From NCBI RefSeq assembly GCF_021228235.1, contig NZ_JAJQRG010000001.1, positions 682,001 through 746,000 of the forward strand: a DNA stretch of 64,000 nt, in the 5' to 3' direction. The DNA is from Pseudophaeobacter flagellatus (lineage in GTDB: Bacteria; Pseudomonadota; Alphaproteobacteria; Rhodobacterales; Rhodobacteraceae). A program made the position numbers and the translations under genes. A model generated the notes under the pieces. That model was given only the letters and a program-made list of their open reading frames with translations, was not told the DNA's origin and did no database searches. Shown piece after piece: positions 1-3,998 of this stretch (position 1 is the first letter of the stretch; each line of letters opens with the position of its first letter).

Positions 1-2693
<2,693 letters not shown>

Positions 2694-2710
2694 GCCTGTT
2701 TTACCGTCAC

Positions 2711-2747
2711 ATGTTCCAAAATGTTCGCAAATGTTCTCATAAAGTTC
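2711..2747 (+). promoter_or_regulatory. LexA box preceded by tandem ATGTTC decamers
   Basis: GTTC at 2733-2736 and GTTC at 2744-2747 are separated by exactly seven bases. This is the alphaproteobacterial LexA recognition pattern GTTC-N7-GTTC. Two further ATGTTC units start at 2711 and 2721, so three ATGTTC units repeat at a 10-bp period before the final GTTC. A TTTACA hexamer at 2748-2753 directly abuts the box and could be a -35 element for the small gene at 2840. The pattern is seen in the sequence; LexA binding is inferred. Confidence 0.65.
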
Positions 2748-2839
2748 TTTACAGGCGCGTCGTAAAGTGAGAACAAATAGGCAACAAGATCGCCAGAGAG
2801 CGGTTGCCAACCCGACAGACAAGAGTGGAGCGCAGACCA

Positions 2840-2962
2840 ATGATGACCCAATTGAAAACAACCCTGAACAACACACAGTCGACCCTGTTGCAGGACGCGC
2901 TTGGCGCTGCATCCTTGGTGGTCATGCTTGTGGTTGCGCTGCATCTGCCAGGTTTTTTGTAA
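2840..2962 (+). CDS. 40-residue single-pass membrane peptide, candidate SOS-induced gene
   Basis: A short open frame starts ATG-ATG and encodes 40 residues (39 from the second ATG). GGAG at 2827-2830 is well placed as a ribosome binding site. The first half is polar and looks amphipathic (TTLNNTQSTLLQDALG). The second half is one hydrophobic helix (AASLVVMLVVALHLPGFL) that runs to the C-terminus, so it should be a small inner-membrane protein. A LexA box lies about 90 bases upstream and no other gene reads away from that box. I recall similar short proteins in roseobacters but cannot confirm homologues here. By size, topology and likely SOS control it resembles Caulobacter SidA, a 29-residue SOS division inhibitor. 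That function is inference only. Confidence 0.6.
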   Translation: MMTQLKTTLNNTQSTLLQDALGAASLVVMLVVALHLPGFL

Positions 2963-3062
2963 CCGCCCGACCTGAAGTTTCCTTATCCCCGCCCGTCGTA
3001 ACCGCAAAAACTGGAGACTTATTCCCCGAGCAAATTTGAATACTGCCTGCTGTCTTTATGAC

Positions 3063-3215
3063 GGGAACGTGCATGTCTTATCCCGACCTGCGATGGAAAC
3101 CTTGCTTGTCCTTGTTTCACCGGTTGCGCCTATCAACCGGATTGCGTTCCCGGACCCCGCATGAAGACGCATATACTGCCGCCACCATCTGCCCGGATGT
3201 GTGGCGGTTTTTTTT
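3063..3215 (+). ncRNA. Possible small RNA ending at an intrinsic terminator
   Basis: The stretch contains no convincing gene but has a 7-bp hairpin (CCGGTTG/CAACCGG, about 3120-3140) followed by a strong intrinsic terminator at 3178-3215. A weak TTGAAT (3036-3041) with TATGAC (3057-3062) could serve as promoter, though the 15-base spacer is short. No coding gene ends just upstream, so the terminator needs an owner. The start is a guess, and a long 3' end of the 2840 gene transcript is the main alternative. Confidence 0.3.
3178..3215 (+). terminator. Rho-independent terminator
   Basis: CCGCCAC (3179-3185) pairs with GTGGCGG (3201-3207), followed by eight T at 3208-3215. It reads on the plus strand and could end the 2840 peptide transcript or a small RNA. 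Confidence 0.8.
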
Positions 3216-3533
3216 GCCGTCGCCCTGCAAGACTGGGGGCGATCAGGATTTACCCCCATGTGCCAGGTCACCGCAGTGGCGGTTTGCGACAAAGATCGGT
3301 ACAGAAAACCCTTCATCATGACAAACTTGCACCGCCCATATCACAGCTGCGAGAAGAGCTGGCGGAGCCGGTTTTAATTGTTGCTTCTTTGCTGATGATA
3401 CATCCGGCAGGTCGGGCGGCACGCCTGCACCGATCGGCGGTGGTGTTGTCTTGGCTGCGCGGCATGTTACCGTATGACGTGCCCCAGATCAGATGAACCG
3501 AGGGCTGCCTGTTTGAGTAACATAAAGCTAAGG
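3216..3533. other. Gene-poor stretch
   Basis: Nothing convincing was found here. The longest open frames have unnatural composition, no ribosome binding site and no recognisable motif. Confidence 0.5.
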
Positions 3534-3998
3534 TTAAGCGCAGTTTTTTTGCGACGCCTCATGAAATGCCTCGAGCGTGGCATCGAGGCACAGCAGGATA
3601 GAGGCATGACGGTTTTTGAAATCGCGCGCCGGTATCAGCACTTCCAGCTCTGCAAAGGGGGGCGCGGGCGGCGGTTGGTTGGCGGTCAGCATGGCTTTCA
3701 GCTCTGCGCGGGCGGTTTCGACTTCGCTCAGGCTGCGGCCAATGATCTTGCTGGCCACAATCGAGGCCGAAGCCTGCCCCAGGGCGCAGGCCTTGACGTC
3801 CTGGCCAAAGTCGGCAATCTGCCCGTCGTGCAGGGTCAGATCAACGGTGACGGTTGATCCACACAGCGGCGCGCGTTTCTTTGCGGTGGCATCCGGGTTG
3901 TCCAGCCGATCAAGCAGCGGAATATCCGCCGCCAGCGCCAGAATACGCGCCGAATAGAGCTTGATAAGATCGGTTTCGCTGGACGTTTCGCTGGACAT
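3534..3998 (-). CDS. Iron-sulfur cluster assembly scaffold protein (IscU/SufU-like)
   Basis: This 154-residue cytoplasmic protein resembles the IscU/NifU N-terminal scaffold fold, on which Fe-S clusters are built before transfer to target proteins. Three cysteines sit at the expected places: Cys46 (APLCGS), Cys71 (KACALGQAS) and Cys137 (ILLCLD). The usual Asp after the first Cys-Gly is Ser here, a variation that may affect cluster stability. The start is the ATG ending at 3998, preceded by GAGG at 7-8 bases; a longer frame upstream has no family-like sequence. It is divergent from hisI with a 77-base gap. No other suf/isc gene is adjacent, although a gene annotated in this clade as SufBCD-associated lies at 51544. 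Confidence 0.8.
   Translation of the reverse strand: MSSETSSETDLIKLYSARILALAADIPLLDRLDNPDATAKKRAPLCGSTVTVDLTLHDGQIADFGQDVKACALGQASASIVASKIIGRSLSEVETARAELKAMLTANQPPPAPPFAELEVLIPARDFKNRHASILLCLDATLEAFHEASQKNCA

Follow-up and report, generated by a model that had tools for sequence, protein, structure and literature searches.

A probable LexA-repressed unit behind recG in Rhodobacteraceae combines a predicted single-pass membrane peptide with a structured 3' RNA

Behind recG in Pseudophaeobacter flagellatus lies what is probably a LexA-repressed, monocistronic transcription unit with a dual function, which encodes a predicted membrane peptide of 40 residues and carries a structured RNA in its 3' part. 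The unit was found in the window, by which we mean the whole 64,000-nucleotide stretch of contig NZ_JAJQRG010000001.1 that was analysed, and its features are collected in Table 1. Comparison of related loci points to purifying selection on the peptide frame and to selection on structure in the RNA, and the two are presumed to share a single transcript.

The initial annotation had marked the LexA box, the Shine-Dalgarno sequence GGAG and the 40-codon frame, all of which are where it placed them, and had put the box about 90 bases ahead of the frame, which agrees with the 92 nt between the box end and the ATG in the window. New here are the inverted second operator and the covarying structured RNA in the 3' UTR behind the peptide. 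Both were missing from that annotation, and the RNA appears to be part of the same transcript.

Table 1. Features of the recG-proximal unit, in window coordinates
Feature	Position	Strand	Basis or remark
recG, upstream neighbour, outside the proposed transcript	579..2693	+	NCBIfam RecG equivalog, 1106 bits; start codon taken from the mechanical ORF list
Operator region 1	2713..2747	+	GTTC half-sites at 2713, 2723, 2733 and 2744
LexA box GTTC-N7-GTTC, GTTCTCATAAAGTTC	2733-2747	+	Within operator region 1
-35-like hexamer TTTACA, adjoining the box	2748..2753	+	TTCTTTACA in 39 of 51 unselected loci
Operator 2, GAAC-N7-CAAC (GTTG-N7-GTTC on the other strand)	2771..2785	-	47 of 51 loci
Shine-Dalgarno sequence GGAG	2827..2830	+	Similar string in 48 of 51 loci, AGAG only in 6 of these
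40-codon frame (P0001), predicted single-pass membrane peptide	2840..2962	+	Conservation, selection, hydropathy, AlphaFold
Structured 3' UTR RNA (model R1)	3042..3214	+	Covariation; closing stem 3048-3060 with 3160-3171
Exposed CUGCCUG and C-rich motifs	within 3042..3214	+	Motif counts; predicted unpaired
Rho-independent terminator	3178..3215	+	Stem GCCGCCAC...GTGTGGCGG, then a run of T

LexA-type sites around the presumed promoter

Taken alone, the pattern GTTC-N7-GTTC occurs at chance level: the window has three copies where 1.18 are expected, and 12 of 100 shuffles have at least as many, while the whole genome has 101 matches compared with 122 for a reversed control pattern. A case for the box built on counts alone was rejected, because neither the window count nor the genome count is above chance. 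An exact box stands ahead of the frame in 51 of 52 loci that were not picked for carrying one (hereafter the unselected loci, which are the unique ones among L001 to L053; L027 to L053 are best-scoring matches and no random draw). The sole exception, L053, has three GTTC half-sites spaced ten bases apart. All 26 relatives that bear the frame have an exact box, the nearest lying 72 to 132 nt 5' of the start, and the end of recG upstream, which is also upstream in all 53 loci from L001 to L053. When 51 unselected loci were aligned, the GTTC half-sites at -10, 0 and +11 were 96 to 100% conserved per base, and in some divergent loci the adjoining TTTACA is replaced by TTGACA or TTGACG.

We also searched with a 20-base pattern that spans box and -35 region and holds no peptide information. 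Among the 117 matches listed, the peptide lies directly downstream in 113 and recG lies upstream in 112. The four matches without the peptide comprise two loci that end before it (L132 and L164) and two chance matches in other phyla (L071 and L076); the five without recG comprise two chance matches, two loci that begin no more than 72 bases from the box (L085 and L120) and one, L125, with no recG at that place. In this tally L096 counts as a weak peptide match (E 4.6e-4) and is absent from the tally of boxes, in which the peptide starts of L141 and L162 were wrongly assigned.

The second operator is of the type GAAC-N7-SAAC and begins 38 bases past the box start in 47 of the 51 unselected loci, compared with a rate of 1% in shuffles when any position is allowed; the same site at the same offset occurs in 90 of 110 promoter-selected loci. 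In the window's own genome, GAACATGAGTAGAAC stands before lexA and GAACAAGAGGCGAAC before recA; both read GAAC-N7-GAAC in the orientation of the genes and represent the same operator type. The presumed promoter of the peptide unit is flanked by its two LexA-type sites, and its -10 element is expected in or near operator 2, an arrangement that fits tight repression. A usual -10 hexamer was not recognisable across the 51 aligned loci, and a simple promoter scan of the locus gave no sigma-70 site. The excerpts of a D. shibae study (PMC6473078) list in silico LexA sites at lexA, recA, dprA and others, and recG is absent from that text. The near-constant box and the operators of the same type at the genome's own lexA and recA suggest that the unit is very probably under LexA control, as the initial annotation had proposed.

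Conservation, distribution and topology of the peptide

The 40-codon frame is almost certainly a real coding gene. Among 12 members of the genus, the pN/pS ratio of the frame is 0.16 (66 non-independent pairs), compared with 0.34 to 5.2 for the other five frames, and differences from the window's peptide frame number 87, 10 and 209 at codon positions 1, 2 and 3. In a sample of 60 relatives, 36 of which belong to the family, the frame was found in 26 at E<=1e-3. All 26 are family members, and they include all 12 members of the genus when the window's own genome is counted. The initial annotation had set conservation of the frame with its upstream box beforehand as a test of its proposal, and such conservation was found: beyond the 26 box-bearing relatives, profile A1, which was built from 23 of the 26 peptides, matches 344 of 394 family genomes (343 of 393 genera). 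The A1 match is single in every one of the 344 genomes but two, G376 and G417, each of which has two matches that may represent second copies. The window peptide matched nothing in Pfam or NCBIfam, and a comparison with plasmid and phage records was likewise empty, which gives no sign of a mobile-element gene.

A second profile, A2, was built from 86 of 91 peptides, leaving out L062, L116 (cut by the locus end), L138, L150 and L153. Residues D19 and G22 are invariant over the 86 members, and in the most divergent loci, L214 and L210, one or the other is replaced. Across a class-wide sample, A2 matches 5 of 385 genomes, all five in the Rhodobacteraceae, the family of the window; of the 380 genomes without a match, the 20 listed belong to other families.

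A1 found no match in 50 family genomes, and the following figures cover the 20 of these that were listed. Eight of the 20 match A2 at E<=0.1, with an exact box in seven of the eight, and the remaining 12 have no A2 match even at that threshold. A recG locus was obtained from 15 of the 20 (L236 to L250, of which L250 was unreadable), and an exact box stands right behind recG in seven. A LexA domain was matched in 16 of the 20, one of them weakly. Loss of lexA as the cause of most missing peptides is unsupported by this result, for which the LexA domain was scored in these 20 genomes only. As 12 of the 20 listed genomes have no recognisable peptide and 16 have a LexA domain, the unit seems dispensable in some lineages. 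In G091 (L209) the peptide and its box occur together on a different contig from recG, and the pair therefore seems to have moved jointly.

The initial annotation described the peptide as a polar part followed by one hydrophobic helix, and this description is borne out by hydropathy, charge and structure prediction. The highest 17-residue mean hydropathy, 2.38, falls on residues 20 to 36, and in 155 distinct peptides the mean number of lysines and arginines is 2.5 before the hydrophobic stretch and 0 after it. According to the positive-inside rule, the positively charged side of a membrane protein stays inside, and an orientation with the N terminus in and the C terminus out is therefore predicted. 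AlphaFold2, run with 18 sequences, returned a single helix over residues 2 to 39 (mean pLDDT 84.6, pTM 0.43), a model that shows little besides helicity. Comparison across the family thus strongly supports a predicted single-pass peptide with a polar N-terminal part on the inside and one membrane helix.

A structured RNA in the 3' untranslated region

Two motifs recur in the 250 nt past the stop codon of the 153 distinct loci. CTGCCTG occurs in 122 of them, where shuffled sequences gave 5.4, and CTGTCCC in 110, where shuffling gave 6.0; a GC-rich terminator follows the motif region. The terminator in Table 1 is missing from the list that a simple terminator scan of the locus returned. The arms of the closing stem pair more stably within a locus than between loci, with -18.05 kcal/mol compared with -12.09 (sd 0.28) for anchored segments, a test that covers those 87 of 131 loci in which both anchors are present. 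In 61 loci outside the model alignment, the corresponding energies are -13.64 and -8.01 kcal/mol (sd 0.32), and the lowest of 200 shuffles reached -8.83.

In alignment A3, which holds 34 of 61 3' UTRs, 30 of 39 base pairs show two-sided changes, a count that is inflated by related rows and that refers to a structure drawn from the same 34 sequences. Under the same reservation, the covariation score is 0.248; shuffles gave 0.131, with 0 of 500 coming up to the observed score, and sliding the structure along gave no more than 0.118. One hairpin in this alignment is poorly aligned and 50.6% paired. RNAalifold, run on 109 3' UTRs aligned with plain MAFFT, recovered the terminator alone, and this alignment was set aside.

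Of 198 family genomes, 149 have a match to covariance model R1 and, with strict filters, 49 have none. The model's one match in the window's own genome is the RNA of Table 1, a copy that was in the training set. Positions of RNA and peptide were compared in 73 of the 149 genomes, and in all 73 the RNA directly follows the peptide, with both on one contig and one strand, at a median gap of 13 nt (-15 to 113). Most matching genomes have one match, and G110 has five. In a class-wide sample, R1 matches 20 of 289 genomes at E<=0.01. Four of these are family members (E<=2.1e-17), and the 16 matches outside the family are weak (E 8.6e-6 to 0.01); three of the latter that were inspected look like terminator hairpins, with no GTTC-N7-GTTC on the strand scanned. 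A search of window positions 2500-3700 and 14 loci against Rfam, in E-value mode, listed matches that all stayed below their gathering scores, and we rejected these: among them, GABA3 lay over the terminator, SorX was on the minus strand and Ysr141 fell mostly on the recG part of the loci. The RNA thus represents a conserved family that Rfam does not recognise, and its covariation and conserved motifs suggest that it is very likely functional.

The two motifs are predicted to be exposed, with unpaired probabilities of 0.74 and 0.68 compared with an average of 0.44 for the core and 0.46 for other C-rich 7-mers. The C-rich hairpin loop is degenerate in the window's copy, reading CTTATCCC where most loci have CCTGTCCC. 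In 145 distinct 5' UTRs, most complements of the motifs are scarce: GGACA occurs once against 9.7, GGGAC not at all against 4.7, CAGGC not at all against 3.8, GGCAG not at all against 5.6 and AGGCA once against 7.8. The idea that the motifs target the unit's own 5' UTR is therefore unsupported, as most complements are avoided, though GACAG (30 against 16) and ACAGG (13 against 5.6) are enriched. The scarcity suggests a base-pairing RNA that would spare its own leader, and protein binding by the exposed motifs is an alternative. We consider a trans-acting base-pairing sRNA the likelier role, with a fair measure of doubt.

Possible role in division and alternative explanations

Our best reading is that the unit resembles SidA and DinR combined in one gene and would restrain division during the SOS response, a role suggested by analogy. 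The comparisons with known systems given here draw on excerpts of the published accounts. SidA of Caulobacter is a 29-residue inner-membrane SOS peptide that interacts with FtsW and thereby blocks division (PMC4211646), and DinR of Klebsiella is a 3'-end sRNA of the LexA-controlled dinI that represses ftsZ and has been linked to division arrest (PMC10907235). Like SidA, the product here would be a small single-pass membrane peptide under LexA/SOS-type control in an alphaproteobacterium, as judged by sequence; it differs in its 40 residues, in the structured 3' RNA that accompanies it and in that its action on division is conjectural. No homology to SidA was found in the class-wide A2 search, whose matches all fell in the window's family and whose sample may or may not include Caulobacter. 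The likeness to DinR is one of layout, in that a regulatory RNA would lie in the 3' part of a LexA-controlled small-protein mRNA, whereas the dinI product is a modulator of the RecA filament and not a membrane peptide. Bacillus YneA, which interacts with FtsW, and Staphylococcus SosA are SOS-induced division inhibitors as well, but belong to other phyla.

In the mechanism that we propose, DNA damage would lead RecA to trigger self-cleavage of LexA and the unit would be derepressed, after which the peptide would insert in the inner membrane, contact the divisome and slow septation. The 3' RNA, possibly freed by RNase E, would pair with mRNAs bearing GGGACAG or CAGGCAG and adjust their expression. 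Whether the peptide acts on division is, in our estimate, evenly balanced. We hold the whole picture, a LexA-gated unit with division as the role of the peptide and with or without a trans-acting RNA, to be equally balanced, because it rests on that step and because a recognisable peptide is missing from 12 of the 20 listed A1-negative genomes. A bolder version is tentative: the dual-function RNA would define a DNA-damage division checkpoint of the Rhodobacteraceae, with the peptide blocking the divisome and the repeated CUGUCCC and CUGCCUG loops of a multi-hairpin sRNA, delivered by the same LexA-gated transcript, silencing division or cell-cycle mRNAs.

The Rhodobacteraceae form a large family of marine and phototrophic bacteria, and the genome of the window has no match to SulA (PF03846). 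In the open-access literature searched, neither an SOS division inhibitor from this family nor a recognisable paper on this peptide or RNA turned up. A putatively LexA-gated gene that 344 of 394 sampled family genomes carry is a direct and testable candidate for such an inhibitor, and its 3' RNA would join DinR as an RNA-based form of SOS control, coupled here to the gene of a membrane peptide.

Alternatively, the RNA might be the main product, a DinR-like SOS sRNA, and the peptide an accessory or a regulator of some membrane system other than division, for example a transporter, the release of gene-transfer agents or envelope stress. This possibility agrees with the strongly covarying structure and conserved motifs of the RNA and with the Klebsiella precedent, in which a LexA-controlled 3'-end sRNA represses ftsZ (PMC10907235). 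We regard it as doubtful, given the purifying selection on the peptide itself and given that L209 to L213 and L215 keep divergent peptides and boxes where the match to the RNA model is weak or missing, which argues that the peptide is no mere by-product.

It is unlikely that the peptide is instead an SOS-induced membrane-active toxin, which would depolarise or disturb the inner membrane and send damaged cells into dormancy. E. coli TisB and DinQ are short SOS-regulated membrane peptides, with which our unit agrees in size, in having a single membrane helix and in its LexA control, and the 3' RNA could serve as a brake; however, these systems have antisense or antitoxin RNAs (agrA/agrB for DinQ, istR-1 for TisB), and no RNA of this kind appeared here among the Rfam matches listed. 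The peptide is also single-copy in nearly all matching family genomes, keeps mostly to one chromosomal place behind recG and, in the window, resembles no plasmid or phage record. TisB has a regulatory leader ahead of its frame, and the merely 72 to 87 nt from box start to ATG in 29 of 51 unselected loci would leave little space for one.

Excerpts of three papers on R. sphaeroides (PMC6238624, PMC8625941, PMC9779115) describe RSP_7527, an mRNA of about 300 nt for a small hypothetical protein, and UdsC, a processed 67-nt sRNA of the 3' UTR in which nt 39 to 67 form the terminator. Compared by description only, this too is a small-protein mRNA with a terminator-bearing 3' UTR sRNA in a related bacterium, and the RNA part of our unit may already have been described in that one species under these names. 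That the unit is a relative of this stress mRNA with SOS control as a secondary matter is very unlikely: the layout is similar and the RSP_7527 promoter fusion responds to H2O2 with increased activity, but the authors report an RpoHII-dependent promoter induced at elevated temperature, whereas the promoters here appear to be built on LexA-type sites.
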